The notes beneath the pieces were generated by a model. It had not been told where the DNA came from. It saw only the letters and a program-made list of their open reading frames with translations, and did no database searches. The translations under genes were made by a program, and so were the position numbers. 64,000 nt of DNA, taken from assembly GCF_000830005.1 (NCBI RefSeq), contig NZ_CP010407.1, forward strand, positions 7,142,001-7,206,000, read 5' to 3'. Source of the DNA: Streptomyces vietnamensis. GTDB lineage: Bacteria > Actinomycetota > Actinomycetes > Streptomycetales > Streptomycetaceae. Shown here one piece after another: positions 13,629 through 60,957 of this stretch (its first letter is position 1; every line of letters starts with the position of its first letter).

Positions 13629-13838
13629 ATGGATTTCGATCTCGGCGGCTACCAGAGCCTGGGAGCTGCCTTCGACGCGCGGATCGCGCGTCACCCGGAG
13701 AAAGCCGCTCTCACCGTCACCCGTGGCACTGCCGAGGAAGACGACGAGAACCTCGGCTTCACGGAGCCGGTGCGGCTCACCCCGCCGCGCGAACCGGACC
13801 CCAAGGTGCGGCGCCTGGCGGCGGGAGCCCTCAGGTGA
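13629..13838 (+). pseudogene. Fatty acyl-AMP ligase with most of the gene deleted in frame
   Basis: 69-codon frame with an AGGGGAA ribosome site. Its first 46 residues (MDFDLGGYQSLGAAF, IARHPEKAALTV) match the N-terminus of the intact FAAL at 59176. Its last dozen (EPDPKVRRLAAG) match the end of that FAAL (ELEPAVRRLTAG). Everything between, about 520 residues including the whole active site, is gone. The stop overlaps the GTG start of the next gene (GTGA), so it may survive as a leader that keeps translational coupling to the dehydrogenase. Confidence 0.85.
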
Positions 13839-15592
13839 CCGCCACCCGCACGGGCGCCGGGATCGCGGCCGCCCTCGACGAAGCCCTGGGCCCGCTCGAC
13901 GAGACGGCCCGCCGGTCCGTGGAGCTCGACGAGGACGATCAGTTCCCCGCGGACTTCTGTGCCCGCCTCGATGGGTTGGGCCTGTCGGCCTACTACGTAC
14001 CGACCGAGTGGGGCGGCGCGCTGTCCGACCACGAGGAGATGATCCGGCTCTGGCGCATCGTCGCTCGCCGTGACATCAGTGCACTGACGGCCCACGCCAA
14101 GACGTACCTGGGCGTGGCCCCGATCTGGATCGCCGGCAACCCGGAGCAGGCCAGGGCCACCGCTGACGCGGTGATGTCAGGTTCGCCGGTGGCTTGGGCG
14201 CTGTCCGAGCCGGAGCACGGTGCCGACCTGCTGAGCGGTTCCGTCACCGCCACGGCGGAGCCCGACGGCTACCGTGTCGACGGCGTGAAGTGGCCGATCA
14301 ACAACGCCACCCGCTCGAGCCACCTCACTCTGCTCGCGCGCACCGGCCGGGACGGCTCCGGGCGTGGCCAGAGCCTCTTCCTCGTCGACAAGTCGGTGCT
14401 GCAGCCGGGTACTTGGCGGACACTGCCGAAGGTGCTGACGCACGGCATCCGCGGAATCGACATCTCCGGCATCGAGTTCGACGGTGCGCTGCTGCCGGCC
14501 GACGCATTGATCGGCCCGGAGGGAAGCGGCCTGGAGACGGTGCTGCTCGCGCTCCAGTTCACCCGGACGATGTGCACCGCACTCTCCCTCGGCGCCGGTG
14601 AGCACGCGCTGCGACTCGCGGCCCGGTTCGTGGGGGCACGCATCATACAGAAGCGCCCGCTGGCCGAACGGCCCTTCCCGGCCTCGGTCCTGGCCCGCAG
14701 CGCCGCGCTGCTGACGGCTACGGAAGCGACCGCGCTGGTCGCCGCCCGTTCGCTCCACAGCCTCACCGCGGAGATGAGCGTGACCTCGGCGGCCGCCAAG
14801 GCACTCGCGCCCACACTGGTCGACGCCACGCTGGGGGAGCTCGCCGAACTGCTCGGCGCACGTTCCTTCCTCTCCGACGTGTACGAGTACGGCGCGTTCC
14901 AGAAGGTGTGGCGCGACCACCAGATCGTGGCGGTGTTCGACGGCAGTACCCCGGTGAACCGCGCCGCCCTGGTGCAGCAGTTCCCCAAGCTCGTCCGTGG
15001 CTTCGCCACCGGCACCGTCGATGCGGCCGGACTGGCAGAAGCCGTCTCGATCGGCAGTCCGGTCCGCCGCGTGGACCGGGGCGCACTGACCATGCTGTCC
15101 CGGCAGGGATGCTCCGTCGTGCAGGCGCTGCCCGCACTCGTCGAGTCGATCGGCAGCCGGCCCGCCCCCGCCGGGCTCGCCGACCAGGCCGTCGCACTGG
15201 GTGCCATGGCCGACCACCTGCACAGCCAGATGGCCGACGTGGCGCCCGCCGCCCGTCCCCCCATGGCCGCCTACGAGCTGGCCGCCGCCTATGAGCTCTG
15301 CTACGCGGGTGCGGCCTGCCTGCACCTGTGGACCACGGGTGAATCCGAGCATGCGGCGGAGCCGCTGTGGCAGGACGGCCTCTGGGTGCGGGCGGCGCTG
15401 CGCGCCCTGCTGGCCAGGCTCGCTGCGGTACTGCGAGTGCCGGTGCCGGCTGCCGGGCCCGGCGACGACCGGCTCGACGCCACGCTGGCCGGTCTCGTCG
15501 TCGACGCCGCGAACACCGGTGCCCCCATCACCCCGTTCGGGGCGCCGGCGCCCCGAACGCTTCAGCAGGGGAAGGACTCACGTGAGCGCTGA
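13835..15592 (+). CDS. Acyl-CoA dehydrogenase-like enzyme 1
   Basis: 585 residues, GTG start overlapping the previous stop. Acyl-CoA dehydrogenase features include ALSEPEHGADLLSG in the flavin/substrate region, VDGVKWPINNATRSSHLTLL, and the C-terminal VYEYGAFQKVWRDHQIVAVFDGS. It is longer than the usual 380-residue enzymes and carries an extra C-terminal helical region, like the dehydrogenase pair of the enduracidin and ramoplanin clusters as I recall them. Inferred role: introducing a double bond in the fatty acyl chain bound to the carrier protein or CoA. It overlaps the next dehydrogenase by 11 bp. The end of the intact FAAL at 60954 carries only the first 12 codons of a second copy of this gene. 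Confidence 0.88.
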   Translation: MTATRTGAGIAAALDEALGPLDETARRSVELDEDDQFPADFCARLDGLGLSAYYVPTEWGGALSDHEEMIRLWRIVARRDISALTAHAKTYLGVAPIWIAGNPEQARATADAVMSGSPVAWALSEPEHGADLLSGSVTATAEPDGYRVDGVKWPINNATRSSHLTLLARTGRDGSGRGQSLFLVDKSVLQPGTWRTLPKVLTHGIRGIDISGIEFDGALLPADALIGPEGSGLETVLLALQFTRTMCTALSLGAGEHALRLAARFVGARIIQKRPLAERPFPASVLARSAALLTATEATALVAARSLHSLTAEMSVTSAAAKALAPTLVDATLGELAELLGARSFLSDVYEYGAFQKVWRDHQIVAVFDGSTPVNRAALVQQFPKLVRGFATGTVDAAGLAEAVSIGSPVRRVDRGALTMLSRQGCSVVQALPALVESIGSRPAPAGLADQAVALGAMADHLHSQMADVAPAARPPMAAYELAAAYELCYAGAACLHLWTTGESEHAAEPLWQDGLWVRAALRALLARLAAVLRVPVPAAGPGDDRLDATLAGLVVDAANTGAPITPFGAPAPRTLQQGKDSRER

Positions 15593-17255
15593 GAAGTTGG
15601 ACGCACTGTTCGGCGACCCACGGGACCCGGACAACCCGGTCGGCTACGCCGCCGTCCTCGCCGCCGACGAGCGGCACGAGATGCTCGCCGAGGGCGAACG
15701 CCTGCTGGAGGCCTACGGCATGAACGCCGAGTTCGTGCCGGCCGCGTACGGTGGCCGACTGGTGCGGGCCGACCGGCTTGCCGAAGTGCAGCGGGCACTG
15801 TGGCGACGCGACCCCTGCCTCGGCCTCGGCTACGGCTTCAGCTCCCTCCTCGGATCGGTCAACATCTGGTCCGCCGGCACGCACGAGCAGCGCACGAAGG
15901 CAGCCGAGATCCTGCTGGGGGGCGGCCGGATCGCGGCCGCCTTCCACGAACTCGACCACGGCAACGACTTCGCGCACGCCGAGTGCGCTGCCGTTCCGAG
16001 CGACGACGGCTGGCTGCTGACCGGGCGCAAGGAGATCGTCACCAATCTGCGCCGTGCCGAGGCCATGGTGCTCTTCGCACGGACCAGTGAGGTCGCGGGC
16101 AGCCGCAGCCACAGCCAGTTCTTCGTCACCCGGGACGAGTTGCCGGCCGACCGCGTGCTGGATCTGCCGCGGTTCCCCAGCTCCGGCATGAACGGAGTGC
16201 AACTCGGCGGACTGCGGTTCTCCGACTGCCCGATCCCCGGCAACGCGATGCTCGGCCGGCCCGGCCAGGGCATCGAGAACGCCCTGCGCGCCTACCAGCT
16301 CAGCCGGGTGGTGCTCCCGGCCATCCTCGTCGGGCCGTTGGACACCGCGCTGCGCCTGGCGCTGGAGTGCGTGCACGAGCGGCGCCTCTACGGTGGCGTC
16401 GCCGCCGACCTGCCCTATGTGCGCGCCGCCCTCGCACGCACCTACGCCGACCTGCTGGCCGTCGACGCCTTCTGCGGCGTCGGACTCCGGGCGCTGCACC
16501 TGGCCCCGGAGGCCACGCTGCTCTACGCACCGGCGGTGAAGTACCTGACGTCACGGATCGTGCTGGACGCCTTCGAGGATCTGCGTGCGGTCATGGGCGC
16601 CCAGGGCTACCTCCGCGAGGGCTCCTACGCGATGTTCCAGAAGCTCGTCAGGGACGCCGCTCCGGCCACCTTCGCCCACATCTCGCGCTCCGCCTGCCTG
16701 GTTCTGATCCTGCCGCAACTGCCCCGGCTGGCGCGGAAGTCCTGGCTGGCCGACCCGGCCGCCGCTCGGCAGCTGTTCGACCTCGGCGCGGACCTGCCGC
16801 CGCTGGACTTCGACCAGCTCGCCGTCGGCATGCTGTCCGGTGACGGGCTGATCGGCGTGCTGGCCGAGACCGCCGAGCGCGAGTCGGCCGGCAGCCCGGT
16901 CGGTCGGTTCGCAGTGCGCTTCAGGGACGAGGTGCTCGCGCTGCGCGACCAGTGCGCCGCACTGGCCCCCTCGGACCTCACGATCGGGGCCTCTCCGGAG
17001 GCCTACGCGGTGGCCGACCGGTACACGGTGCTGCTCGCCGCCGCCGCCGCGCTCGCGGTCTGGCGCAGCGATGACCGTCAGCAGGAGGCGGCGCTCCTCG
17101 GGATCCTCGACCGGCTCTCCGGACGCCTCGGTGGCGCCCCGGTGCTCACTCCGGACGAGCGCGCGAGTGCCGAGCAGGCGCTGTTCGACATCGCTGTCGA
17201 GCGCTTTCAGGACGGGCGGCTCCTCGACCTGTCCGCACGTCATGTTTCGGGATGA
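15582..17255 (+). CDS. Acyl-CoA dehydrogenase-like enzyme 2
   Basis: 557 residues from a GTG inside the end of the previous gene, with AGGGGAAGGA upstream. Family features: FHELDHGNDFAHAE, LTGRKEIVTNLRRAEAMVLF, and VLDAFEDLRAVMGAQGYL with EGSYAMFQKLVRD near the C-terminus. It is related to but distinct from enzyme 1. The pair probably acts on neighbouring positions of the lipid tail, giving a di-unsaturated acyl group as in enduracidin-type compounds. The carrier-protein gene follows after 13 bp, in one operon. Confidence 0.87.
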   Translation: MSAEKLDALFGDPRDPDNPVGYAAVLAADERHEMLAEGERLLEAYGMNAEFVPAAYGGRLVRADRLAEVQRALWRRDPCLGLGYGFSSLLGSVNIWSAGTHEQRTKAAEILLGGGRIAAAFHELDHGNDFAHAECAAVPSDDGWLLTGRKEIVTNLRRAEAMVLFARTSEVAGSRSHSQFFVTRDELPADRVLDLPRFPSSGMNGVQLGGLRFSDCPIPGNAMLGRPGQGIENALRAYQLSRVVLPAILVGPLDTALRLALECVHERRLYGGVAADLPYVRAALARTYADLLAVDAFCGVGLRALHLAPEATLLYAPAVKYLTSRIVLDAFEDLRAVMGAQGYLREGSYAMFQKLVRDAAPATFAHISRSACLVLILPQLPRLARKSWLADPAAARQLFDLGADLPPLDFDQLAVGMLSGDGLIGVLAETAERESAGSPVGRFAVRFRDEVLALRDQCAALAPSDLTIGASPEAYAVADRYTVLLAAAAALAVWRSDDRQQEAALLGILDRLSGRLGGAPVLTPDERASAEQALFDIAVERFQDGRLLDLSARHVSG

Positions 17256-17268
17256 GAAAGGGAGTTCG

Positions 17269-17550
17269 ATGACTGATCGGACAGTGGGTGTGCGGGTGTC
17301 GGGTGAGGACATCGAGCGGTGGTTGATGGAGCGGGTGTCCTATTACCTGGAGACGCCGGTGGGGGAGATCGATCCGGGCGTCTCGCTCGCCGAGTACGGG
17401 CTGGAGTCGGTGTACGCCTTCGCGTTGTGCGGGGACATCGAGGACAAGTTGGGTGTGACCGTGGAGCCGACCCTGGTGTGGGACGTCGACACGGTTGCGG
17501 CTCTGACCGTTCACCTGACCGGCCTGGTGGCCGAACTGCCGTCGGCCTGA
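17269..17550 (+). CDS. Acyl carrier protein, copy 1
   Basis: 93 residues, AAAGGGAG ribosome site. The carrier-domain helix II motif YGLESVYAF gives the phosphopantetheine serine S47, and the length is normal for a free-standing ACP. It should carry the fatty acyl chain from the FAAL to the starter C domain of the first NRPS, 173 bp downstream. Copy 2 at 58364 differs at only four of 282 bases (G7D, P30A and two silent changes), which implies very recent duplication or gene conversion. Confidence 0.92.
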   Translation: MTDRTVGVRVSGEDIERWLMERVSYYLETPVGEIDPGVSLAEYGLESVYAFALCGDIEDKLGVTVEPTLVWDVDTVAALTVHLTGLVAELPSA

Positions 17551-17723
17551 CGGACCTTCCGGGCCTTCAAGGCCCGCAGGGCTCTTAGTACACGTTTGTC
17601 TGCCGGCGGCGGGATCCGACGGGGTCCTGGGCCGGTTCGGTTGATTCGCGCGGTCCCAGTGCCGTGGTTCAGCGTCCTGCCTTTGTTCTTCCAGAGTGTG
17701 TCGATCGATTGAGGGATACGAGA

Positions 17724-20700
17724 ATGGGTGCCTCCGCACAGGGTCCGTGGGATCTGATGTCCGGCCAGCTGGGGGTCTGGTACGCGCAGCAGCTCGCGCC
17801 TGACAATCCGGCGTACAACATCGGTGACTGCACGGAGATCCACGGCGAACTCGACGCGGATCTCTTCGTGCGCGCGCTGCGCCGCACGGTGCAGGAGGCG
17901 GAGGCTTTCCGTCTGCGCCTGTGCGTGGAGGACGGGACGCCGCGGCAGTTCCTGGGGGAGGCCGGGGAGGTTCCGGTTCACGTGGCGGATCTCCGGGGGG
18001 AGGCTGATCCGCGTGCGGTGGCGCAGGAGTGGATCCAGGCCGATCTGGACACGCCGGTGGAGCTGGTGGGCGGGGCGCTGTCGGGGCATGCGTTCTTCGT
18101 GCTCGGGCCGGATCGCTTCCTGTGGTACCAGCGTGCTCACCACATCGTTCTCGACGGCAATGGTCTGTCGCAGTTCGCTGAGCGGCTGTCCCAGGTGTAC
18201 GAGGTGCTTCGGGCGGGTGGGGATCCGGCCGAGAGTGCTCTGCGGTCGGTGTCCGAGCTGATCGAGACCGACGAGGTCTACCGGGATTCGCAGGAGCGTG
18301 ACCGGGACCGGCGGTTCTGGCTGGAGACGTTCTCGGACCATGAGGAGGAGACGGCGTCCGAGGGGCCGCAGGGGCGGCGCCTCGCCGGCCGGCCGGTGAC
18401 CCACCAGCAGGATCTCGGAGTCGACGCGACCGCTCGGCTGCGGGCTGCCGCGAAGCGGCTTCGGGTCAGCTTCGCCGGTTTGGTGATCGCCGCGTCGGCC
18501 GTCTACCAGCACCGGTCCACCGGGGCGCAGGACGTCGTGCTCGGAGTGTCGGCCAGCGGCCGCACGAGCATGCGCGAGGTGGGCATCCCCGGCATGACGT
18601 CGAACATCATGCCGATCAGGCTCAGGGTCCGCCCGGGCACGTCCGTCGAGGAGCTCGCGCGGCAGACGCAGCGAGCGGTCCACAGCGGTCTGCGTCACCA
18701 GCGCTACCAGTACCCGGACCTGCTCAGGGACCTGAAGCGGGTCGGCGGCACCCCGCTGTACGACATGATCGTCGACGTCATGGTGGCCGACCGCCAGATC
18801 GGGTTCGGCGACTGCGCGATCACCTGGACCGCCCTCTCCAGCGGGCCTGCCGAAGGCCTGAAGATCGACGTGTTCGGCAAGGCGGGCAAGGCGGCCGAGG
18901 GCGGCGTGCAGACCCTCATCGAGATGAACCGCGAGCACCACGACGCCGAAGCGGCGTCGTCGGTGAGCCGCCGGTTCCTGGCCGTGCTGGACTGGCTCAG
19001 CAGTGCTCCGGCCACCGCCTCGGTCAGCACCGCCGACCTGCTCGACCCGGCTGAGCGACGGCTGGTGCTGGAGACCTGGAACGACACCGTGGTACCCGGC
19101 GAGGCCCTGCCGGTACCGCAGCGGTTCGCGGCCCAGGTGGCCGCGACGCCGCAGGCGGTTGCCGTGGTGGCCGACGGCGCGGCGGTGTGCTACGCCGAAC
19201 TGGACGAGCGAGCCAATCGTTTGGCGCACCACCTCCTTGCCCAGGGCGTCGGTGCGGAGTCCCTGGTCGGTCTGTGCCTGCCGCGCGGCCTGCAGGCGAT
19301 CGAGGCGATCCTGGCGGTGTGGAAGGCGGGGGCGGCGTACCTGCCGCTGGACCCGGCGTACCCGGCGGAGCGGCTCGGCCGGCTGCTGGCCGACAGCGGG
19401 GCCGGGCACGTGCTGGGCGAAGCGGCGCTGATCGGGGAGCTGGCAGCCCAGGGTGTGCGCACGATCGCCCTGGACGACCCGACGGTGCTGACCGAGTTGA
19501 TCGCACGACCCACCGCTGCGCCGGAACTCGACGTGACGGCCGACCAGTTGGCCTACGTGATCTACACCTCCGGCTCGACCGGCAAGCCCAAGGGCGTGGC
19601 TGTGACGCACCGCGGGCTCGCGAACTACGTGGCCTCGGTGCCGGGACACGTCGGCTTCGGTACGCCGGGCGGTAGGTATGCGCTGCTGCAGCCCACGGTG
19701 ACGGACCTCGGTAACACCGTGGTGTTCGCGAGCCTGACGACCGGCGGTGAACTGCACGTCCTGCAGGAGGGCGCGGTGACCGATCCGTCAGCCGTGGCCC
19801 AGTACCTGGCGGAGAACCGCATCGACTTCGTGAAGGTGGTGCCCTCGCACCTGGCGGCGCTGGGCGCGGCAGCCGGCCTGGCCGCCCTGATGCCGGCCGG
19901 GGCGCTGGTGCTGGGCGGCGAGGCGGCGTCGCCGAAGCTGGTCGCCGGACTGCTCGAAGTGGCCGGTGACCGTGGTGTGTTCAACCACTATGGGCCCACT
20001 GAGACGACCATCGGCGTGGTAGCCGGCCGACTCGACCGGAAGCCGGTCGACGCGGGCGTGGTGCCGCTCGGGGTGCCGGTGGCCAACACCCGTGCCTACG
20101 TGCTGGACGGGTCGCTGAGCCCCGTTCCGGTCGGTGCGGTGGGTGAGCTGTACGTGGCCGGTCCGCAGGTGGCGCGCGGGTATGTGGGTCGTGCCGGTCT
20201 GACCGCGCAGCGGTTCGTGGCCTGCCCGTTCGGCCCGGCCGGCGAGCGGATGTACGCGACGGGCGACCTGGTGCGGTGGACCACCGACGGCGAACTGGTG
20301 CACCTGGGCCGTACGGACGAGCAGGTGAAGATCCGCGGCTTCCGGGTGGAGCCGGGTGAGGTGCAGGCGGTGCTGGCCGCGCACGAGTCGGTGGCACAGG
20401 CCGCCGTCGTCGTCCGCGAGGACTTCCCGGGCGACAAGCGCCTGGTCGCCTACGTCGTTCCCGCCGCCGCGCAGACGGCTGACGCCGCGCGACTGAGTGA
20501 GCTCGTGTTCGTGTTCCTGGCCGAGCGGCTGCCGGGGTACCTGGTGCCCTCCGCGGTGGTGGTGCTGGACGAGCTGCCGCTGACGGCCAACGGCAAGCTG
20601 AACCGCGCCGGCCTGCCTGCTCCGGACTATCTGTCCTCCACCGCCAAGGCCGTCGGCCGGGGTCCGGCGACGGTGCACGAGGAGATCCTCTGCGGTGTGT

Positions 20701-23700
20701 TCGCGCAGGTGCTGGGGATGGAGAGGGTCGGCGTCGACGACGACTTCTTCGCTCTGGGCGGCCACTCGCTGCTGGCGATCCGGCTGATCAGCCGGATCCG
20801 GACGGTCCTGAACGTCGAGTTGCCGATCCAGGTGTTCTTCGAGATGCCGTCGCCGGCCGGGGTCGCGGCCTGGCTGGCCGAATCGGCGGTCACCGAAGGA
20901 CGTGCGGCGCTGGTGCCGGCGGAACGGCCGGATCGGGTGCCGCTGTCGTTCGCACAGCGCCGCCTGTGGTTCCTGGGGCAGCTGGAGGGTCCGAGCGTCG
21001 CCTACAACGCCGCGGTGGCGCTGCGACTGAGCGGAGAGTTGGACCAGCAGGCACTGGCGGCCGCGTTCAAGGACGTGATCGGGCGGCACGAGGCGCTGCG
21101 CACGGTCCTGCCGGCGGTGGACGGTGAGCCGTATCAGCGTGTCCTGTCGGTGGAGGCGTGCGGGTTCGAGCTGTCGGTGGTCGAGGTGGCCCCGCAGGAG
21201 CTGGATGCGGCGGTGGCCGAGGCCTCGGGTTACGCGTTCGACCTGTCGGCGGAGATCCCGCTGCGGGCGACGCTGTTCGCGGTGGCGCCGCAGGAGCATG
21301 TGCTGGTGGTGCTGGTGCACCACATCGCGGGTGATGGTTGGTCGACGGGACCGATGCTGCGGGATGTGTCGGCGGCGTACGCGGCACGGCTGGGCGGTGC
21401 GGCGCCGGTGTGGGAGCCGCTGCCGGTGCAGTACGCGGATTACGCGCTGTGGCAGCGGGAGTTGCTCGGCGACGAGAACGATCCGCAGAGCGTGATCTCG
21501 GGGCAGGTGGCGTACTGGCGCGAGGCGTTGGCGGGGGCGCCGGAGGAGCTGGAGCTGCCGACCGACCGCCGGCGCCCGGCGGTCGCCTCGTACCGTGGGC
21601 ACGAGGCCCTGCTGGATGCCCCGGCCGAGCTGCATGCGCGGGTGCTGGAGGTGGCGCGTGAGCGGGGGGTGACCCTGTTCATGGTGCTGCAGGCGGCGTT
21701 GGCGGTCACCCTGAACCGGATCGGCGCGGGCGCGGACATCCCGATCGGGTCGCCGGTCGCCGGGCGCACCGACGAGGCGCTGAACGACCTGGTCGGGTTC
21801 TTCGTCAACACGTTGGTGGTGCGGACCGACCTGTCCGGTGACCCGACCTTCGACGAGGTGCTGGAGCGGGTCCGGGAGACCAGCCTGGGGGCGTTCGCGC
21901 ACCAGGACGTGCCGTTCGAGAAGCTGGTCGAGGAGCTCTCGCCGGCCCGGTCGATGGCACGCCACCCGCTGTTCCAGGTCGTGCTCACCCTGCAGAACAC
22001 GGAGTCGGCACGGCTGGAGCTGCCCGGTCTGCGCGCCGACCGGGTGCCGACCGGCCTGGTGCACGGCAAGTTCGACCTGGACCTGAACCTGAGCGAGGCG
22101 TTCGACGCCGACGGTGCGCCGGCCGGCTTGCGGGGTGTGCTCCTGGCGGCGGCGGACCTGTTCGATGCGCAGACCGTGCGGCGGATCGCGGGCCGGCTGC
22201 TCCAGGTTCTGGAGACGGTGACGGCGCAGCCGGGGACGCGGTTGAGCGCCGTGGATGTGATGGGCGCGGATGAGCGTCGCCTGCTCCTGGAGGAGTGGAA
22301 CGACACGGCGGTCGAGGTGGCGTCGTCGACGCTGCCGGAGCTGTTCGCGGCGCAGGCGGCGCGGACGCCGGATGCGGTGGCGCTGGTCTTCGAGGGCGTC
22401 GAGCTGTCGTACGCGGAGCTGGACGCGCGGGCGAACCGGCTGGCGCGGCTGCTGATCGGCCGGGGTGTGGGCCCGGAGTCGGTGGTCGCGGTGCTGATGG
22501 AGCGCGGCGTGGAGCTGGTGGTGTCGCTGCTGGCGGTGGTGAAGGCAGGGGGCGCGTATCTGCCGGTCGATCCGGCGTACCCGGATGAGCGGATCGGGTA
22601 CACGCTGGGTGATGCGGGCGCGCGCCTGGTGCTGACCTCGACTGAACTGGCCGGTCGGCTGGGTGGGTTCGGTGTCGAGGTGGCGGCGTTGGACGAGCCG
22701 TCGGTGGTGGAGGAGTTGGCGGCGCTCGATGACGCGGCGGTGGAGGGTGTGGTGTCGCCGGGGCATCCGGCGTATGTGATCTACACCTCCGGGTCGACGG
22801 GTCGGCCCAAGGGCGTGGTGGTGACGCATGGCAACGTGACCGGGTTGTTCGCGCAGACCGGGCCGCTGTTCGGCGGGTTCGGGGCGGACGACGTGTGGTC
22901 GTGCTTCCACTCGTTCGCGTTCGACTTCTCGGTGTGGGAGTTGTGGGGTGCGCTGCTGCACGGCGGTCGGGTGGTGGTGGTCCCGCATGGGGTGTCGCGG
23001 TCGCCGCAGGAGTTCCTGGCGCTGATCGAGCGCGAGCGGGTGACGGTGCTGAGCCAGACGCCGTCGGCGTTCTACCAGTTGGCGGCCGTGGAGGAGCAGC
23101 GGCCCGAGGCGGTGGCGTCGGTGCGTGCGGTGGTGTTCGGTGGCGAGGCGCTGGATCCGGACCGGCTGAGCGGCTGGTGGGGGCGTCACGGTGACGGTGG
23201 TCCGCGGTTGGTGAACATGTATGGCATCACCGAGACCACGGTGCATGTGACGTTCCGCGAGCTGTCCTCGGGTGAGGGCGGGTCGGGCAGCGTGATCGGG
23301 CGCGGTATTCCGGGTCTGGGCGTGTACGTGCTGGACGAGTTCCTGCGGCCGGTTCCGGTGGGCGTGACGGGTGAGATGTATGTCGCGGGTGGGCAGTTGG
23401 CGCGGGGGTACCTGGGCCGTGCGGGGCTGACGGCCGAGCGGTTCGTGGCGTCGCCGTTCGGGGTGCCGGGTGGCCGGCTGTACCGCACGGGTGACCGGGC
23501 GAAGTGGTCGGGCGACGGCGAGCTGGTGTTCGCGGGTCGTGCGGACGAGCAGGTGAAGATCCGCGGTTTCCGGATCGAGCCGGGTGAGGTGCAGGCCGTC
23601 CTGGCCGCACACCCGGGCCTGGAGCAGGCCGTGGTGCTGGTCCGTGAGGACGTGCCGGGCGACAAGCGCCTGGTGGCGTACGCGGTTCCGGCCGACGTCG

Positions 23701-33824: not shown

Positions 33825-34030
33825 TGATTCCGTTGTCGTCTGCGCGGCGTCGGCCGTGGTTCCCGAGTCAGTCGGAGGGTCCGAGTGCGACCTACGACAT
33901 TCCGATGGCACTGCGACTGACCGGGGATGTGGATCGGGAGGCCCTCGTCGGCCGGCCCGCCAGTCAGATCAAGACCCAGAGCATGACCAGGCCCACTCTG
34001 CGGCCGATGCGTAAGCAGGAGGACTACTGA
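33824..34030 (+). pseudogene. 68-residue scar of a deleted NRPS gene
   Basis: The ATG overlaps the NRPS 1 stop (TGATG), and the stop likewise overlaps the ATG of NRPS 2. Residues 1-42 are the start of a C domain ([32 protein letters not shown]), copying the N-terminus of NRPS 2 with several damaging changes: F6S, Q8R, two L-to-P, one L-to-S. Residues 43-68 are an NRPS C-terminal tail ending [14 protein letters not shown]. All domains between are absent. This is what an in-frame deletion of a whole NRPS gene between its start and end would leave. Whether the 68-residue product is made, and could interfere with docking, is unknown. Confidence 0.8.
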
Positions 34031-51600: not shown

Positions 51601-52680
51601 CTGCCGGCCCCGCAGCATGCCGTGAGTGCGAAGGCTCCCGACGGCGGCGGCTCGCTCAGTGCCCTCGAACAGACCGTGTGCGAGGCGTTCGCGAAGCTGC
51701 TGGGGCTGGAGAGCGTCGGGCTCGACGACGACTTCTTCGCCCTGGGTGGGCACTCACTGCTGGCGGTGTCGCTGGTGGAGGAGCTGCGGTCGCGCGGTGT
51801 GTCGGTGTCGGTGCGCGACGTGATCACCAACCCGACTGCGGCGGGACTGCTCAGCAGGATGTCCTTGTCGTCGGTCAAGGACGCGCTCGGCGGCATGCTT
51901 TCCATCCGGCCGAGCGGCAGCAAGTCGCCGTTCTTCTTCGTGCATCCCGGAAGCGGGGCGAGCTGGTGCTACCTGCCGCTGGCCCGGTACATCTCGCAGG
52001 AACATCCGCTCTACGGGCTGCAGGCCGACGGGCTCGACGGCACGAGTGAACTCGCAGCCTGTGCCGTGGAGATGGCCGCGGCGTACATCGAGCAGATTCG
52101 TTCCGTGCAGCCGAGCGGCCCCTACCACCTGGTGGGTTACTCCTTCGGGGGGACGGTGGCGCATGAGATCGCGGTGCAACTCCAGGCGGCGGGTGAGCAG
52201 GTGGCCGCGCTGGTCATGCTGGACGCCTACCCGGCGGAGCAGGACGCGGATCCCGCCGCGGTCGGCGAGGCATCCCGCAACGCTGGGGAGGCGGACCGGT
52301 CCGACGACCCGGCGAGCTCGTCGGCGGACGGCGAGAACGCCGTGGGCGCCCAGAGGCTCCGGGAGCTCCGGGCGGACATGGGCGCTGTCCTCGGTGGGAT
52401 CTCGGACGAGGAGCTGATCCGCATCATGCGCGTCTTCGAGAACAACAGCCGGCTGTTGGCGGAGCACCGGACCGGTCGGTTCCGCGGGGATGCCCTGATG
52501 GTGGTCGCGACGGCGGACAAGGCGACCGATGTGCCGTGGGCGCAGCAGTGGGAGCCGTACGTCTCCGGGGAGGTCACCGAGGTGAGCCTTCCCTTCACGC
52601 ACGCCGACATGATGCGGCCTCAGGCGCTGGGCCAGGTGTGGGCCGCCGTCGAGGGGTGGCTGGGCTCGGGCCGGTCGTAG
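45667..52680 (+). CDS. NRPS 3, two modules plus thioesterase (Val-Hpg-TE)
   Basis: 2337 residues from a GTG 3 bp after the NRPS 2 stop, AAGGAG site. Domains by nucleotide: C10 45667-47000 LCL, A10 47030-48480, T10 48510-48710; C11 48760-50100 LCL, A11 50125-51600, T11 51650-51850; TE 51880-52680. Codes: A10 DAMWWGGT (Val-like), A11 DAYHLGLL (Hpg). A10 has lost about 14 residues around core motif A9: the usual LPxYMVP between GEE and [11 protein letters not shown] is missing, while the A10 lysine motif remains. The TE has GYSFGG (S2159), MLDAYP and a C-terminal FTHAD. It should release the undecapeptide, most likely as a macrolactone with the Thr2 hydroxyl by analogy with enduracidin. The ring position is inference. 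Confidence 0.93.
47038..48271 (+). repeat. Long near-identical segment, Val-like A domain copy b
   Basis: Partner of 35404-36640. The match stops just before the A10-specific deletion of core motif A9. Confidence 0.8.
50139..51452 (+). repeat. Long near-identical segment, Hpg A domain copy b
   Basis: Partner of 32003-33316. Divergence from copy a resumes abruptly after the shared ACGGTGATCG, within the C-terminal part of A11. Confidence 0.85.
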
Positions 52681-52942: not shown

Positions 52943-53713
52943 TCAGCGGGAGCTGAACGCCCCGGAGAGGGCCGGGATGTAGGTCGGAATCCGACTCCAG
53001 ACCTCCGGCGTGTAGAAGTGGCCGCCGGGCAGGGCGTCGTGCCGGAAGTCACCGGTCGTGAGGTGCCGCCAGTACTCGCCGGCGTTGGGCTCGATCACCG
53101 TGTCCGTCTCGCCGGTCAGGACCTGCAGCGGCACACTGACCTTCGAGCCGGGAACGTAGCGGAAGGTGTCCCGGACCCGGACGTCGGCCCGCATCAGCTC
53201 GACCGCGAGTTCCCGCAGGTCCGGGTCGTTGACGACGTGCTCGGGCAACATCCCGTGCATGGTCATCCAGCCGAGCAGCTGCTCGTCGGTGTCCTGCTGG
53301 GTCGGGGACCCGTCCTGGGCGGTCAGTCCGCGGTCGGCCGCGTTGGCGGAGGACACCACGAGCGCCTCGGGCGCGGGGCCGCCGAGCCGCTCGATGCGCA
53401 CGGTGACGTCGAAGGCCATCCAGCCGCCCATGCTGTGACCGAAGAGCACATAGGGGCCCTCGGCGGCGGCGGAGAGCACGGCCTGGGTCGTGTCGTCGGC
53501 GAGGGCGTCCCAGGTCTGGGCGAAGTCCTCCATGAAACGGCCTTCCCGGCCCGGGTAGCAGATGGCGGCGAGGTCGACGTCCGCCGGGAGCATGCCGCCC
53601 CACTGGTGGTACTGCCCGGTGCCGCCGCCGCAGAAGCCGAGGCAGATCAGGGTGCGGGCGGCGTTCTCGGTTCGGCGGGATCGGACGACGATGAGGTCCT
53701 GGGCGGTAGCCAT
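52943..53713 (-). CDS. Type II thioesterase
   Basis: 256 residues. GrsT/RifR-type alpha/beta hydrolase with an early LGFCGGGTGQYHQW, nucleophile GHSMGG (Ser94), GETDTVIEP with the Asp, and PGGHFY with the His. It removes wrong or stalled acyl groups from carrier domains of NRPSs and so keeps the line running. It is the last gene of a minus-strand operon, 27 bp after the free-standing A-T gene, and may also proofread that carrier domain. Confidence 0.93.
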   Translation of the reverse strand: MATAQDLIVVRSRRTENAARTLICLGFCGGGTGQYHQWGGMLPADVDLAAICYPGREGRFMEDFAQTWDALADDTTQAVLSAAAEGPYVLFGHSMGGWMAFDVTVRIERLGGPAPEALVVSSANAADRGLTAQDGSPTQQDTDEQLLGWMTMHGMLPEHVVNDPDLRELAVELMRADVRVRDTFRYVPGSKVSVPLQVLTGETDTVIEPNAGEYWRHLTTGDFRHDALPGGHFYTPEVWSRIPTYIPALSGAFSSR

Positions 53714-53740: not shown

Positions 53741-55552
53741 TCAGGGGGTCTCGGGAGCCGCGGCGAGCTTGGCCTCGACGTACCCGGCCAGTTCGCGCAG
53801 CTGCGGGTGCTGGTACACCTCTTTGGTCCGCACGGCGAGGCCGAGCTCGCGCTTCAGCCGGCTGATGACGCGCAGCGCGACGAGCGAGTGGCCGCCCAGG
53901 GCGAAGAAGTTGTCGTCGGCGCTGATCCGGTCCCGGCCCAGGACCTCCGACCAGACCTCGGCGAGCAGCTTCTCGACCGTTCCCCGGGGCTCGACGAACT
54001 GCTCGACGGGTGCCGCATGCGGCGCGGGCAGTGCCTCCCAGTCGACCTTGCCGTTGACGGTCAGCGGAATGGCGTCGACCGCCACGAAGACCGAAGGGAC
54101 CATGAACTCGGGGAGCGCTGCGGCGCAGTGGTCGCGCAACTCCGCGCCGGTCGGCGGCTCGGCGGCGACGTAGTAGGCCACCAACCGGTCGCCGAGCGCG
54201 GGGTCCCGGTAGCCGGTCAGCACGGCGGTGGTCACCCGGGGGTGCGAGGAGACCGCGGCCTCGACCTCGCCGAGTTCGATCCGGTAGCCGCGGATCTTGA
54301 CCTGGCGGTCGACCCGGCCGATGAAGTCCAGCGAACCGTCGGCTCGCAGGCGGACCTGGTCTCCGGTGCGGTACATCCTCGCTCCTTGCCCGCCGCCGGG
54401 CAGGGAAGGCCCGTCGCCGTTCGCGGCGAACGGGTCGGCGACGAAGCGCTCGGCGGTCAGGGCCGACCGGTTGAGGTAGCCCAGGGCCAGGCCCTCGCCC
54501 GCCAAGTACAGCTCGCCCGTCTCACCGGGAGCGGTCACCTGCCGGAGGTCGTCGCCGACCACGTACGCCCGGGTGCCCGGCAGCGGGTGGCCGATGTGCG
54601 CTTCCCCACCGGTGATCCAGGCACTGGTGGCGTCCACGGTGCACTCGGTCGGACCGTAGAGGTTCACCGCTTCGAGCAGCCCGTTCGCGGTCGCCTTGGA
54701 CATCTCCTCCCAGGTCCGCTCCGGCACCGGCTCCCCGCCCATGAACAGACGCGGCAGCGGGCCGTCGGCACCGCTGTCCAGCAGGCAGGTTCGCACCAGC
54801 TCCCAGAGGGAGGGGGTGAGGTCGAGGTCCTGGATGCCGTACGCGTCGAGCAGGGTCCGGAGCTGGACGGGATCGGTGCGCTGGTCCTCGTCGAGGATGG
54901 CGATGGTGTCGCCGCGGCAGATCCGCGCCCACTGCTTCACCGAGGAATCGAAGGAGACGCTGGCGTTCCAGCCGACGACCCGCGGCTCTTCGGCGTAGAC
55001 GCCGGCCCGCTCCAGGGCCGTGACCAGGTCTGCGACGGATCCCCGTCCGACCTGGACGCCCTTGGGCCGACCGGTTGAGCCCGAGGTGTAGATCACGTAC
55101 GCCGGGTCGAGCGGATTGGCGGCCACCGGCTTCGAGTCGGCGGCTTCGGGGTCGTCGGCCACGGAGTCCGGGGCGACGACGTCGAGGCCGGATGCCCACA
55201 GGGCGTGGCTCGGCGCCCCCACCAGTACCCGGATGCCGGCGTCCTTGGCCATGAACTCCAGGCGCTCGACCGGGTAGCGGGGGTCCAGCGGGAGGTAGGC
55301 CGCACCCGCCCGCCACACCGCGAGCAGCGATACGACCAGCTGGGTGGTGCGCGGCAGGCTGACCCCCACCAGGTCGCCGACGCCGATGCCACGGGAGGCC
55401 AGGGCACCGGCGAGCTGTGCGGTTCGCCGGTCGAGCTCGGCGAAGGTGAGCTCACCGTCCGTGCCCCGTACGGCGATCCGGTCCGGGGCGTGCTGTGCGG
55501 CAGCGCGGAAGCGTGTTACCAGGTCAACCGGCTTCTGGGCGAGGTCAGTCAC
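53741..55552 (-). CDS. Free-standing adenylation-thiolation protein, Glu-like code
   Basis: 603 residues from a GTG with AAGGAG upstream; an upstream ATG at 55597 lacks such a site. A complete A domain has [25 protein letters not shown] and NGK, followed by one T domain with [12 protein letters not shown]. There are no C or TE domains. Its specificity residues, read by eye, are DSKDFGLV. The D-x-K-D-x-G pattern is closest to Glu codes such as DAKDLGVV and clearly not Thr (DFW). It is the only protein here that could supply the residue for the A-less module 8. In kutzneride synthesis, as I recall, KtzN likewise loads Glu in trans onto a module with a truncated A domain, and partner dioxygenases hydroxylate it. 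Two such dioxygenases lie directly upstream here. The amino acid is a tentative call. Confidence 0.88.
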
Positions 55553-55630
55553 GAGAACGAGCTCCTTGTGCACAGGAATGGGGCATGGCGCGGCCATCGG
55601 ACCGACCCGGTCTGACGGCGCCGGTCAGGT

Positions 55631-56635
55631 TCAGGCGAACGCGGGCGCGGGCTCCACGGTCGGCCGGCACTCGGAGAGCTCGACCGGGTCGCCCATGGCC
55701 ACCACGATCTTCCGGTCGCCACGGAACGGATCCCGGCCGTGTGCGGTCAGGATGTTGTCGACCAGCATCACGTCGCCCGGCTGCCAGGTCTCGCGCACCG
55801 TGGCCGCGTCATAGGCCGCCTGGATGGCCTGGAGGTCCTCGTTGCTCAGCGCGTCCCCGTCACCGAACTCGGTGTTGAACGGAAGACCGTCGCGTCCGAA
55901 CTCATCGACCAGCGCCTCCCGCAGGTCCTCCTCCAGCGCCCACTCGTTCCAGAAGAGCAGGTGGTTGAACCACACCTCCTCGCCACTCGACGGGTGGGTG
56001 ATGATGCCGGGACGGATCTGGCTCGTCTTCAGGGTGCCGTCGTCGTACCACTGGTGGCCGATGAGGTTGTCCGCGCAGTAGCGCGCGACCTCGTCCACGT
56101 CATCGGTGGCGAACGCGGTCTGCCAGTCGGTGGAAATGTGCTCGGAGTAGCTGCGCGAGAGTCGCCACCCGGCGGTCCGGATCTTCTCGACCACCTGATC
56201 GGGGAGCGCGTCGAGGACCTTCCGGCAGTCCGCGACGGGTGTCGCCCCGCCCTGCGACGGTGCGACCAGGCAGCCGAACAACAGCCGGCCGGGGAAGGTC
56301 AGCGTGTAGCTGTTCTCGTTGTGCATCCGGATCGACTGCGCGGCCGGGAGGTCCGTCGAAGAGAAGACGTCGTCGCCGAGCCGACTGCGGGGAGTGGTCT
56401 TCTCCCGGTACGGCGTCCGCTCGCTGATGAGCACGTCTCGGATCTGCGCGAAGTCCTCGATGGTCGCCATCGGCAGGCCGCGCAGGTAGATCGCGCCGTA
56501 TTCCCGCAGAGCCGCGGTCAGTTGCGGACGGACATCCTCGAGCCACGCGCGGACCTGTGTCATCCCGGTGAGACCGGCGACCTGCGTTATGGCCGGCTTG
56601 CCCTCAACTACCTGCCATTCCAGCGTATGTGACAT
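55631..56635 (-). CDS. Fe(II)/2-oxoglutarate amino-acid hydroxylase A (TauD/SyrP/AsnO type)
   Basis: 334 residues from the ATG complementary to 56633-56635, with AAAGGA upstream. Iron ligands: H105 and E107 in MHNENSY (HxE form) and H299 in AHGRDPF. FPGRLLFGC and GGATPVAD are typical of SyrP, KtzO and AsnO proteins, which hydroxylate the beta-carbon of Asp, Glu or Asn, free or bound to a carrier domain. It lies 78 bp upstream of the free-standing A-T gene in the same operon, so the A-T bound residue is the likely substrate. Asp1 or Asp3 on NRPS 1 is the alternative. Upstream it has its own leader with a tandem repeat, after the terminator of hydroxylase B. Confidence 0.9.
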   Translation of the reverse strand: MSHTLEWQVVEGKPAITQVAGLTGMTQVRAWLEDVRPQLTAALREYGAIYLRGLPMATIEDFAQIRDVLISERTPYREKTTPRSRLGDDVFSSTDLPAAQSIRMHNENSYTLTFPGRLLFGCLVAPSQGGATPVADCRKVLDALPDQVVEKIRTAGWRLSRSYSEHISTDWQTAFATDDVDEVARYCADNLIGHQWYDDGTLKTSQIRPGIITHPSSGEEVWFNHLLFWNEWALEEDLREALVDEFGRDGLPFNTEFGDGDALSNEDLQAIQAAYDAATVRETWQPGDVMLVDNILTAHGRDPFRGDRKIVVAMGDPVELSECRPTVEPAPAFA

Positions 56636-56888: not shown

Positions 56889-57827
56889 TCAGCGCGACAT
56901 GGCGACCAGGACCCGGCGGCTTCCGGCGAACGCCCTGCGCCCGTGTGCGACGGCGACGTTGTCGATGACCAGGACGTCGCCCTGCCGCCAGTCGACGTCA
57001 ACGGCCAGCGCCAGCCCCTTCTCGCGGATCTCGAGCACGTACTCGTCGGGGATGGGGGAGCCATCGGCGAAGGTCACCGACTGCGGCAGCTCGTCCGCGG
57101 GGACGATGGCCGCGAGCTCGCGCATGGTCTCCTCGCCCAGCGTCGCGGGGTGCCATTGGTCCGCCTGGTTGAACCAGACCTCCTCACCGGTGACCGGGTG
57201 CCGGAGCGTCGAGGGCCGGACCTGACGCGTCCGCAGCGCATTGCCGGCGGTCCACTCCCAGCTCACGCCCGCCTCGGCCAGCAGCTTCTCGACCTCCGCC
57301 CGGTCGTCCGTCTCGAACGTCGCCTGCCAGCTCTTGCCGAAGCCCCTGCCACCGTGCAGGTACTGCCGGTAGCAGACGCCGCCGCCGAAGTCCGCACGGA
57401 TCCGTTCGTCGAGTGCCGCCAGCCAGGAGGCGCCGTCCAGCAGGGGAGTGGCGCCTCCCGTGGTAGCCGGCTGTACGCAGCAGAAGAGCAGCCGGGAGGG
57501 CCAGGCGTGGGCGTAGGAAAGCTCGCTGTGCATGGAGATCGCGTACTCGGGCGGGTACTCCGTCGAGGTGTAGACGTTGTCGGAGACCTTGGTCCTGGGC
57601 GTGTTGCCGTGCACGTACGCGAGGCGCTCGGGCAGCAGGGCGGGCATCACGTCCGCCAAGCCCGCCTCGGTGACGTCGAAACCCCGGAACAGCAGGGCCT
57701 GGTGACGGTCCAGCAGTTCGCCGACGGCGACCGAGTCGAGGTACTCCATCAGTCCCCGGGTGGTCGCGCTGGCGCCGGTGCTCTCGGGCGTGAACTGTTG
57801 CGGTGCCCAGCCCTGCTGAACGCTCAT
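56889..57827 (-). CDS. Fe(II)/2-oxoglutarate amino-acid hydroxylase B (TauD/AsnO type)
   Basis: 312 residues from the ATG complementary to 57825-57827, with AAGGAG 9 bp upstream. Iron ligands: H100 and E102 in MHSELSYAH and H295 in AHGRRAF. GGATPLLDG and EVWFNQADQWH are shared with hydroxylase A, but the two are only distantly similar overall. Two paralogues with one free-standing A-T protein recall KtzO and KtzP, which give opposite beta-hydroxy-Glu diastereomers (recalled, not checked). Here each may instead serve a different acidic residue, since the peptide has Asp1, Asp3 and possibly Glu8. A terminator separates it from hydroxylase A. Confidence 0.9.
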   Translation of the reverse strand: MSVQQGWAPQQFTPESTGASATTRGLMEYLDSVAVGELLDRHQALLFRGFDVTEAGLADVMPALLPERLAYVHGNTPRTKVSDNVYTSTEYPPEYAISMHSELSYAHAWPSRLLFCCVQPATTGGATPLLDGASWLAALDERIRADFGGGVCYRQYLHGGRGFGKSWQATFETDDRAEVEKLLAEAGVSWEWTAGNALRTRQVRPSTLRHPVTGEEVWFNQADQWHPATLGEETMRELAAIVPADELPQSVTFADGSPIPDEYVLEIREKGLALAVDVDWRQGDVLVIDNVAVAHGRRAFAGSRRVLVAMSR

Positions 57828-59090: not shown

Positions 59091-59130
59091 CGCGCGCCGC
59101 CGTGCATGTCCGCGCGCCGCCGTGCATGTC
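59091..59130. repeat. Tandem 20-bp duplication
   Basis: CGCGCGCCGCCGTGCATGTC twice, followed by a 9-bp partial third copy, about 40 bp before the FAAL start. This is short-repeat slippage in the leader, as at 58975. Confidence 0.85.
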
Positions 59131-59175
59131 CGCGCGCCGACCAGATCGACGCAGCGCCAAGCCCAAGGGGAAGCA

Positions 59176-60957
59176 ATGGCTTTCGAGCTGACCGGCTACC
59201 GGAACCTCGGCGACGCGTTCGCCGCGAGCGTCGCCCAACACCCCGACAAGACCGCGGTCACCATCTACCGCGGCTCCGCCGAGGCCGCGCACGAAAGCCT
59301 CAGCTACGCCGAACTCGCCCGCCGAGCCGGCCTGCGCGCCGCCGACCTGGCGCAGCACCTGGCCCCTGGCGAGCGCGTCCTCATCGCGCTGCCCACCGGC
59401 ACCGAGTTCGTCGAGCTCTACCTCGCCTGCCTGCTGTCCGGTCTCGTCGCCGTGCCCGCCCCGCCGGTGACCGGCTCCAGCAGCGCCGCCCAGCGCGTCG
59501 CCGCGATCGCCGCGGACTGCACCCCGGGACTGGTGTTCGCCGACGCCGGGGACCTCGACACGCTCGCCGAGCGCTTCCACGCGCAGGGCCTGGGTCGCGT
59601 CCCCGTCCGGGCCGCCGCCCCCGTGCCGGCCGGTGAGGCATCTCCAGCGGCGCTCCGCGGCCGCCACACCGACCACGACTCGCTCGCCGTCCTCCAGTAC
59701 AGCTCCGGCTCCACCGGCACCCCGAAGGGCGTGATGCTCGCTCACGGGAACGTCCTGGCGAACCTCGAGGCCCAGTACTCCGTCGTGGGCCTGAACGGTG
59801 ACGACTCGTTCGGCAGCTGGATGCCGCTGCACCACGACTTCGGTCTCTTCGTTCAGCTCAGCGGCGCACTCTTCTGCGGCGCCACATCGGTCCTGATGCC
59901 GCCGACGGTGTTCGCCCGCAGGCCCGTCGAGTGGTTCCGGATGATGAGCGAACTCCGGACCACCGCCACCTCCGCCCCCAACTTCGCGTACGGCATCGCG
60001 CTGCGCCTCATCAAGGACGAACACCTCGAAGGGCTCGACCTGTCACCGCTGCGCTTCCTGATCAACGGTTCCGAGCCGATCCATGCCCCCACCATCGCCG
60101 CGTTCACCAAGCGATTCGCGCAGATCGGCCTGCGTCCCGAAGCCGTCGCGGCCGGCTACGGCATGGCCGAGGTCACCGTCTACGCCAGCGGCACCCCCAT
60201 GCAGCTCCCGCCGACCGTCCTGGTCGTCGACGCCCAGCGCCTCGCTGACGCGGACCACCCCGCGCTGGTTCCCGCCCGTGACGGCCGCAGCAAGGAGATC
60301 ACCGGCGTCGGACGCCCCGAGGCCTTCGACGCCCTCGTCGTCGACCCCGCCACCCTGCGCCCCCTGTCCGCCGGCGAGGTCGGCGAGATCTGGCTGCGCG
60401 GCGACAGCGTCGGCCGCGGCTACTGGGGCAAGCCCGACCTCACCGCCCGTGCCTTCCACGCCCGCCCCGCCGGTGCTGACGACGCCGAACCCGGCTGGCT
60501 GCGCACCGGCGACCTGGGTGCCCTGGTGGACGGCGAACTGTTCATCACCGGTCGGCTCAAGGAGGTGATGATCGTCCACGGCCGCAACTTCTACCCGCAC
60601 GACCTCGAACACGAGGCGCGCGCCGCCCACCCCGCGCTGGAGAGGTTCGTCGGCGCCGCCTTCGGCGTCCAGGCACCCGACGAGCGGATCGTGCTGGTGC
60701 ACGAGGTCAGCCCGACCGTATCGGCCGAGGAACTGCGCGCCGCCGCGGCAGCCGTCATCCGCCGCCTCACCGCCGCCACCGGTGCGCCGGTCCGCAACGT
60801 CCTGCTGGTGCGGCGCGGCAGCGTCGACCGCACCACCAGTGGCAAGATCCAGCGCGCCGCGATGCGCGACCGCTTCCTGGCCGGCGAGATCACTGCCCTG
60901 CACGCCGAACTCGAACCGGCGGTACGGCGGTTGACCGCAGGGCCCGAAACCTCGTGA
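59176..60957 (+). CDS. Fatty acyl-AMP ligase (FAAL), intact copy
   Basis: 593 residues, AAGGGGAAG site. ANL-superfamily ligase of the FAAL type: YSSGSTGTPKGVMLAHGN (P-loop), MPLHHDFGLF, GYGMAEVT, TGDLG, and a C-terminal GKIQRAAMRD with the catalytic Lys. It activates a fatty acid as acyl-AMP and passes it to the ACP instead of CoA, starting the lipopeptide. This is the only complete acyl-activating gene in the window, because the copy before the dehydrogenases is collapsed. Its stop overlaps the GTG of a chimeric scar frame, just as the remnant copy overlaps the true dehydrogenase gene. Confidence 0.93.
   Translation: MAFELTGYRNLGDAFAASVAQHPDKTAVTIYRGSAEAAHESLSYAELARRAGLRAADLAQHLAPGERVLIALPTGTEFVELYLACLLSGLVAVPAPPVTGSSSAAQRVAAIAADCTPGLVFADAGDLDTLAERFHAQGLGRVPVRAAAPVPAGEASPAALRGRHTDHDSLAVLQYSSGSTGTPKGVMLAHGNVLANLEAQYSVVGLNGDDSFGSWMPLHHDFGLFVQLSGALFCGATSVLMPPTVFARRPVEWFRMMSELRTTATSAPNFAYGIALRLIKDEHLEGLDLSPLRFLINGSEPIHAPTIAAFTKRFAQIGLRPEAVAAGYGMAEVTVYASGTPMQLPPTVLVVDAQRLADADHPALVPARDGRSKEITGVGRPEAFDALVVDPATLRPLSAGEVGEIWLRGDSVGRGYWGKPDLTARAFHARPAGADDAEPGWLRTGDLGALVDGELFITGRLKEVMIVHGRNFYPHDLEHEARAAHPALERFVGAAFGVQAPDERIVLVHEVSPTVSAEELRAAAAAVIRRLTAATGAPVRNVLLVRRGSVDRTTSGKIQRAAMRDRFLAGEITALHAELEPAVRRLTAGPETS

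Follow-up and report, generated by a model that had tools for sequence, protein, structure and literature searches.

A Streptomyces vietnamensis gene cluster for a putative acidic, eleven-residue cyclic lipodepsipeptide with a predicted trans-loaded residue 8

Closest described systems

Enduracidin and ramoplanin are assembled by nonribosomal peptide synthetases (NRPSs) of 17 modules (EndA-D). Their module 8 is without an adenylation (A) domain, i.e., is 'A-less', with allo-Thr activated by a free-standing protein of adenylation and thiolation (T) domains, here called an A-T, that is found beside a type II thioesterase (TEII) (PMC13320435). In enduracidin this A-T is EndD, and the thioesterase (TE) domain is located at the end of EndC (PMC13320435); the A-T bears an N-terminal extension as well (PMC8949500). 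In the passages considered here, no mention is made of an oxygenase paired with the A-T. The subject of this article is a stretch of 64,000 nucleotides from Streptomyces vietnamensis (contig NZ_CP010407.1, positions 7,142,001 to 7,206,000), henceforth the window, which is part of a 9.15-Mb genome assembled in 2 contigs. The window holds a gene cluster that, like those of enduracidin and ramoplanin, has an A-less module 8, a free-standing A-T with adjacent TEII, 4-hydroxyphenylglycine (Hpg), a lipid start and a macrolactone plan, and an initial annotation had assigned it to their type. I instead read it, with a probability of roughly 0.7, as encoding the assembly of an acidic cyclic lipodepsipeptide of 11 residues, with residue 8 (X8) loaded in trans and with a lactone between Thr2 and residue 11.

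Loading in trans is described also for WS9326A (WS20/WS22) and legonindolizidine (LgnA), which share with the scheme predicted for the window an A-T acting in trans, a TEII shuttle and the order C-T-C-A-T (C for condensation) at the A-less module (PMC8748450). TEII-catalysed aminoacyl transfer, from A-T to A-less module, has been shown for LgnA (PMC8748450), and such transfer is supported for WS20 and End_25645 (PMC13320435). The A-Ts of those systems are for Thr (WS23: Asn), whereas that of the window is of Glu/Gln type with an Fe(II)/2-oxoglutarate oxygenase encoded next to it. Rotihibin (RthA/RthB/RthD) is a lipopeptide, too, in whose assembly an A-T and a TEII serve an A-less module and whose cluster includes an Asn oxygenase, but its A-T is for Thr and its five-module RthA ends in a reductase (PMC8552735).

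Daptomycin, A54145 and calcium-dependent antibiotic (CDA) resemble the window in other ways, that is, in a fatty acyl-AMP ligase (FAAL) plus acyl carrier protein (ACP), though not in CDA, a starter C domain, acyl-CoA dehydrogenases (ACADs) in some, a CAT-CATTe terminator, an ATP-binding cassette (ABC) exporter, and a likely 10-residue ring (PMC9113097). Among the open-licence paper titles listed, none concerns the S. vietnamensis cluster, which is weak evidence of novelty. Two further candidates were set aside: neopeptin/lipopeptin, with a reported cluster of seven A domains (PMC8211649), and cystargamide, a hexapeptide (PMC9136287).

Architecture of the assembly line

Three collinear NRPSs (17664-52680, + strand) carry 11 modules by domain parsing, the number given in the initial annotation. 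NrpA (17664..33824) spans modules 1-5, laid out as C1(starter)-A1-T1 through C5-A5-T5, with predicted residues Asp, Thr, D-Asp, D-Ser and Hpg. NrpB (34030..45663) spans modules 6-9, i.e., C6-A6-T6, C7-A7-T7, C8-(A remnant)-T8 and C9-A9-T9, for D-Val, Gly, D-X and an aromatic residue. NrpC (45667..52680) is a dimodular CAT-CATTe protein, C10-A10-T10 followed by C11-A11-T11-TE, for Val and Hpg. That this order is not a product of chance is indicated by its recurrence, all 11 modules, in a second Streptomyces genome (G368, below also the sister).

Pocket codes were read from one alignment covering all 10 in-line A domains plus the free A-T. A1 and A3 have DLTKVGHIGK, to be compared with DLTKVGHI, assigned to Asp (PMC10548584), and DLTKVGHVGK, assigned to Asp and Asn (PMC12283262), while the DFWSVGMVHK of A2 is listed among Thr codes (PMC12283262). 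For A6 and A10 (DAMWWGGTFK) and for A5 and A11 (DAYHLGLLCK) the published counterparts are DAYWWGGTFK and DAFWLGGTFK, for Val, and DIYHLGLLCK, for Hpg (PMC9113097). The remaining codes are DVWHFSLVDK (A4), DILQLGLVWK (A7) and DTWTVASVDK (A9; 43870..45363, +). What I take to be Ser, Gly, Asn and aromatic codes are so designated by presumption. A look through the literature at six code strings found matches to the Glu/Gln codes only, and none to that of A9.

An epimerisation (E) domain was not found in the domain parse of the three NRPSs. Four C domains, however, C4, C5, C7 and C9 (C9 at 42451..43827, +, a divergent domain), score just 29-35 bits versus an ordinary NrpC C domain, as compared with 549-967 bits for six others, and have a common 14-residue opening motif. 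I read these, going by that motif, as of dual C/E or D-accepting type, and it is on this reading that D residues are placed at 3, 4, 6 and 8. The predicted order accordingly phrased is Asp-Thr-D-Asp-D-Ser-Hpg-D-Val-Gly-D-X-aromatic-Val-Hpg, with D configurations following from C-domain class; the codes of all 10 in-line A domains reproduce the residue order proposed initially.

The lipid start annotated earlier is borne out by Pfam matches. It consists of FAAL (59176..60957, +, within an open reading frame (ORF) from 58969; Pfam and NCBIfam), a free-standing ACP (17269..17550, +, ORF 17071-17550; Pfam PP-binding), and two ACADs associated with lipid desaturation (13835..15592 and 15582..17255, both +; Pfam), with the starts of FAAL, ACP and the second ACAD set by inspection. 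These are followed by starter domain C1 (17748..19070, +), a divergent N-terminal C domain with motif HHIVLDG. FAAL would load a fatty acid onto ACP, the ACADs would unsaturate the acyl chain, and C1 would acylate Asp1, after which the eleven modules would build acyl-Asp-Thr-D-Asp-D-Ser-Hpg-D-Val-Gly-D-X8-aromatic9-Val-Hpg, with D set by the dual C/E-type C domains. The TE most likely would then close a lactone between Thr2 and residue 11, which leaves one residue exocyclic to a ring of 10. With Phe as residue 9, hydroxy-Glu as residue 8 and a C12:2 acyl chain, the calculated mass of such a product is about 1441.6 Da, with 16 Da more for every additional hydroxylation. The Thr2-Hpg11 macrolactone of the initial annotation stays plausible as a Thr2-residue 11 lactone, with the cyclisation itself a prediction.

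Initiation by FAAL, ACP, ACADs and starter C is the daptomycin-type plan (PMC9113097), as too is termination by a CAT-CATTe dimodule, a point at which the enduracidin/ramoplanin plan proposed earlier does not hold. Might the cluster then be for a calcium-dependent lipopeptide of the daptomycin/CDA family, with an Asp-rich 10-residue ring? Initiation genes, terminator and ABC exporter (62054..64000, +, continuing beyond the window's end; Pfam) all match, and CDA as well has a 10-residue ring plus one exocyclic residue. The predicted ring nevertheless is without Asp-X-Asp-Gly (having instead Asp3-Ser4-Hpg5-Val6-Gly7), E domains were not found in the three NRPSs, the predicted D positions 3, 4, 6 and 8 do not match the ring chirality usual in that family, module 8 appears to be trans-loaded, and other residues differ. 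A start of the CDA type is ruled out by the FAAL found here, CDA being without a FAAL start. Membership in that family I therefore consider very unlikely.

Module 8 and its proposed loading in trans

Module 8 is A-less, both by domain parsing and by the Pfam counts for NrpB, made independently, of four Condensation, three AMP-binding and four PP-binding stretches. What is left is a degenerate C-terminal A remnant (41806..42165, +) that retains most of the C-terminal subdomain, with the lysine motif NGK reading DGA, and because of this remnant A8 seems to have been lost in the window's line. The A-less module and the presence of a free-standing A-T, as initially annotated, thus both stand.

That A-T (53741..55597, -; Pfam) is flanked by genes for TEII (52943..53713, -; motif GHSMG; Pfam; PDB 7e3z at E 1.8e-67), the proposed aminoacyl shuttle, and for TauD1 (55631..56635, -; Pfam), an Fe(II)/2-oxoglutarate oxygenase with an HxE motif. 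I refer to these three genes as the cassette. The A-T is 618 residues in length, with Pfam AMP-binding starting from residue 30, i.e., without the N-terminal extension of about 300 amino acids (aa) of the enduracidin/ramoplanin kind. Its code is DSKDFGLVDK, versus DAQDFGLVDK in 92 of 120 listed homologs; published codes include DAKDLGVV for Glu/Asp (PMC10548584) and DAQDLGVVDK for Glu and for Gln (PMC12283262).

Among the nine closest A-T homologs (P0121-P0129, 81-95% identity) the third code position is K in seven and Q in two. As an observation in its own right, such K/Q variation at pocket position 239 among orthologs possibly represents a natural Glu/Gln switch.

With TauD1 as query over 392 Streptomyces genomes, and accepting matches at E 1e-125 or better, 25 loci were found in 23 genomes, the window's own included. 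At 17 of these loci the TauD1 homolog has an A-T no more than 1.5 kb away, or at 14 of 22 upon leaving out the window, G368 and a further genome, G434. Ten of the 14 loci were opened to about +/-20 kb. In every one, the genes for TEII, A-T and TauD fit into 3.6-4.0 kb, with identities to the window's proteins of 57-65%, 50-58% and 57-69%, respectively; gene order is that of the window in eight and different in two (G317, G412). Six (G204, G302, G355, G066, G410, G317) possess an A-less C-T module, as scored using hidden Markov models made from the window's own domains, and in two others (G198, G255) a C domain closes one ORF and a T domain begins another, which fits with a split A-less module. 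Pfam domain counts, checked for these eight positive loci only, agree for all eight. Overall, A-T and TEII are encoded together with an A-less C-T module in the window, in G368, in Kitasatospora humi, and in 6 of 10 other loci. In both G198 and G255, incidentally, the cassette sits beside a small Hpg-containing NRPS plus HPPD-family supply genes (L183-L186).

Residue 8, given a Glu/Gln-type A-T pocket together with the TEII/A-T/oxygenase grouping in 10 of 10 opened loci, is most likely a hydroxylated D-Glu. The free-standing A-T would activate Glu (or Gln) for X8 in place of loading in cis, TauD1 would hydroxylate it while tethered, and TEII probably would carry the aminoacyl group to T8. Kutzneride is said to provide a likeness, with Glu trans-activated for an A-defective module and beta-hydroxylated on its carrier by Fe(II)/2-oxoglutarate enzymes, and with KtzN, KtzO and KtzP reportedly responsible.

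These same observations bear on whether this might be a true, shortened ramoplanin/enduracidin member, one in which an EndD-type A-T supplies L-allo-Thr to module 8 and whose product likewise binds lipid II. The A-less eighth module, the free-standing A-T and the TEII next to it are as in enduracidin, and the Hpg supply and FAAL/ACP/ACAD start presumably match the enduracidin layout too. The A-T pocket, however, is Glu/Gln-like rather than Thr-like, the approximately 300-aa extension is absent, A-T homologs travel with TEII and a TauD-type oxygenase, modules number 11 rather than 17, and termination is by a dimodular protein. Allo-Thr at position 8 was rejected on the A-T code and the missing extension, the specificity of the A-T being judged here by pocket code. 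By three sequence features, i.e., module number, A-T pocket and A-T extension, the cluster thus is not a ramoplanin/enduracidin member, while a fourth, the A-less module 8, is shared and solved in the same general way. I regard membership, and with it the initial assignment, as highly improbable. To my mind it represents a new family of lipodepsipeptides, put together from devices already known, with enduracidin and ramoplanin compared by their descriptions.

A Thr-coded stand-alone A-T with about 270 extra N-terminal residues does occur elsewhere, in Actinacidiphila acididurans (L054:3406-6879, -), beside an NRPS having a C and then a T domain. It is a candidate for the enduracidin/WS9326A kind, and the window's A-T is just 35% identical to it.

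Sister clusters and single-position differences

The sister genome, G368, holds the whole cluster, with its modules ordered as in the window. DNA identity is 93-98% for the most part and declines to 87-89% at 11.1-12.9 and 51.1-52.9 kb. Of the proteins compared, 18 are 88-100% identical to the sister copies (TauD1 97%), with NrpC lower at 79%.

Catenulispora rubra (G001 C70, C567) shares the scaffold but is unlike the window at position 8. Its modules 3-7 have 82-95% per-domain protein identity to the window's, FAAL is 87% and TauD2 94% identical, and yet its A8 is intact, in cis, and Ser-coded (DVWHFSLVDK). It differs in addition in that A2 is of Phe type, A9 of Asp type and the last module of Val type, on contigs that break within modules 1 and 9 and ahead of the last module. 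A close A-T/TEII/TauD1 cassette was not found in the whole C. rubra genome, where identity reaches no more than 33% for TEII, 56% for TauD1 (located on another contig) and 43-45% for proteins of the A-T type. The trans cassette thus would stand where this relative has a cis Ser-type domain.

In K. humi the TEII (91%), A-T (91%) and TauD1 (94%) are all on one contig. One of its C-T modules retains only a short A remnant (C9, L117), and another has a truncated A domain following a dual-type C (C141, L116), but these modules are on contigs separate from the cassette, and NRPS order differs from that of the window. Cis A8 and trans cassette appear, among the genomes seen, to be alternatives, with the direction of change not proven given so few genomes. 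Two short TauD2-like pieces in K. humi (L107 6037-6202, G002 C131; 76-84% over 37 and 19 aa) are perhaps a TauD2 relic.

Module 11 provides a second difference. In a recombination tract between about 49.8 and 51.5 kb, identity of window and sister falls to 52-72%. A11 (50173..51624, +) is of Hpg type in the window as against DLTKVGEVGK, an Asn-type code, in the sister; the terminal module of G434 has DAWQFGLVQK. Within the window A11 is a near-copy of A5 (32037..33524, +), at 97.5% DNA identity versus a median of 66.1% for the 45 window A-domain pairs and 89.0% for the next closest pair, A6/A10, and a stretch of 826 bp, beginning at 32463 in A5 and at 50599 in A11, is identical in the two. I take A11 to be a copy of A5, with A5 as donor. 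Residue 11 would have become Hpg by way of this copying into module 11 and, given the sister's Asn-type A11 together with the identical stretch, the C-terminal Hpg looks to be a recent acquisition. Intragenomic A-domain recombination has been documented previously in Streptomyces (PMC9205934).

Long exact repeats, such as this one of 826 bp, are also where assemblies fail. Both the A5/A11 identity and two deletions described next could in principle be artefacts in a repetitive NRPS gene, with the real A11 resembling the sister's Asn-type domain. The assembly nonetheless has only 2 contigs, suggesting long reads, A5 and A11 are imperfect duplicates with mismatches between exact runs, and A11 reverts to sister-like sequence past its junction, all of which render assembly error quite improbable.

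The deletions are of 45 nt in A10 (47074..48498, +; Val-like), removing motif A9, and of 36 nt in the C-terminal subdomain of A11, each relative to the sister and each near or inside the recombined stretch. A decaying cluster accordingly is to be considered, one in which these lesions and the copied A11 result in no full peptide, so that this strain would lack the predicted 11-mer. All three long frames are open, however, both deletions preserve frame, and the 18 other compared proteins remain at 88-100% identity. Decay I judge to be unlikely.

Several points do count against the trans-loaded lipodepsipeptide that I favor. NrpC may be impaired, with A10 lacking motif A9 and A11 lacking 12 residues relative to the sister. 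An A-T is absent within 1.5 kb at 8 of the 25 TauD1-homolog loci, and two of the 10 opened loci (G412, G414) showed no A-less module close to the cassette. Glu and Gln are not separable by the A-T pocket code, DAQDLGVVDK being reported for both and close orthologs having K or Q. Lastly, the residue specified by A9 and the targets of three oxygenases (CmlA, TauD2 and a cytochrome P450) are not fixed.

Implications

More tentatively, and with slightly less than even odds, the TEII/A-T/Fe(II)-2-oxoglutarate-oxygenase cassette may be a transferable unit, in use across Streptomyces chemistry, that supplies A-less modules with beta-hydroxylated Glu or Gln. Here it would have displaced a cis A8, while A11 would have been turned to Hpg by the copying of A5, and the sister clusters then would represent a set, made by nature, in which one antibiotic-type scaffold has been edited position by position. 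If the reading is right, lipodepsipeptides of an antibiotic-rich type gain a family and, of greater use, a group of natural assembly lines that are near relatives and that are unlike at individual positions (2, 8, 9, 11), including a natural A-domain replacement and a trans cassette where a relative uses a cis domain. As both edits are what NRPS engineers try to make, junctions and partner choices could be taken from these lines and tested.

Tailoring genes and cluster extent

The cluster runs from about 1 kb in the window, near an MbtH-like gene (1343..1555, +; Pfam PF03621 at E 3e-30; motif scan), to about 8 kb beyond the window's end, and so exceeds the limits annotated initially. Outside those limits, at 3821-8909, are found a CmlA-type di-iron beta-hydroxylase (3821..5410, +; Pfam CmlA_N; PDB 8a90 at E 3e-123, CmlA 4jo0 at E 1e-87), an HmaS-like 4-hydroxymandelate synthase (5482..6501, +; Pfam glyoxalase/HPPD; start by inspection), and an Hmo-HpgT-like fusion of FMN dehydrogenase and aminotransferase (6498..8909, +; Pfam FMN_dh, Aminotran_1_2). 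The latter two are the Hpg supply, an earlier claim thus upheld by Pfam matches. Beyond the window's end (L074:1003-8187) follow a weakly HPPD-like protein, a prephenate dehydrogenase, a regulator resembling the one at 11.6 kb, a second HPPD-family protein, which scores above the NCBIfam curated cut-off (TIGR01263), and a phosphopantetheinyl transferase.

CmlA was first thought to act on aromatic residue 9. Among 28 genomes, an A9-like domain (best identity 65-89%) occurs together with a close CmlA (73-97%) in nine, a close CmlA occurs alone in two (G001 95%, G478 72%), an A9-like domain alone in none, and 17 have neither, G460 with a 37% CmlA homolog among them. Seven of the nine had been picked for the A9 code, though, and scoring was limited to 55 A-domain candidates per genome or fewer, out of as many as 173. 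In the loci that were parsed, Asp/Asn-type codes are present in 10 of the 11 genomes with a close CmlA, the two with CmlA only among them, versus 1 of the 17 others. With this co-occurrence, and with that selection of genomes, Asp/Asn would seem an equal or better target for CmlA. For TauD2 (56889..57827, -; Pfam), a second Fe(II)/2-oxoglutarate oxygenase, its presence without close TauD1 or A-T in one genome, that of C. rubra, suggests, though does not prove, action elsewhere than at residue 8.

Also in the window are a luciferase-like monooxygenase (2..1024, -; Pfam PF00296; 98% identical in the sister cluster), the cytochrome P450 (2326..3534, -; haem motif FGFGEHFCLG), an alpha/beta hydrolase (9500..10303, -; motif GYSMG), and a putative helix-turn-helix (HTH) regulator (11624..12736, +) with weak HTH matches only and homologs in K. 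humi, L074 and the sister. Antisense to NrpA is a very long open frame (4617 aa; 19788-33641, -), which high-GC codon bias most likely explains.

In all, 37 of 72 loci were parsed, the other 35 being mostly mycobacterial by title. Streptomyces sp. Ag109_O5-1 (G459:C1:5087810-5137763; L037, L168, L175, L179) has very long NRPS frames, of 9689 and 10871 aa, in which A9-like domains are found. A CmlA of 73% identity is encoded some 18 kb from them, and this is possibly a much larger relative.

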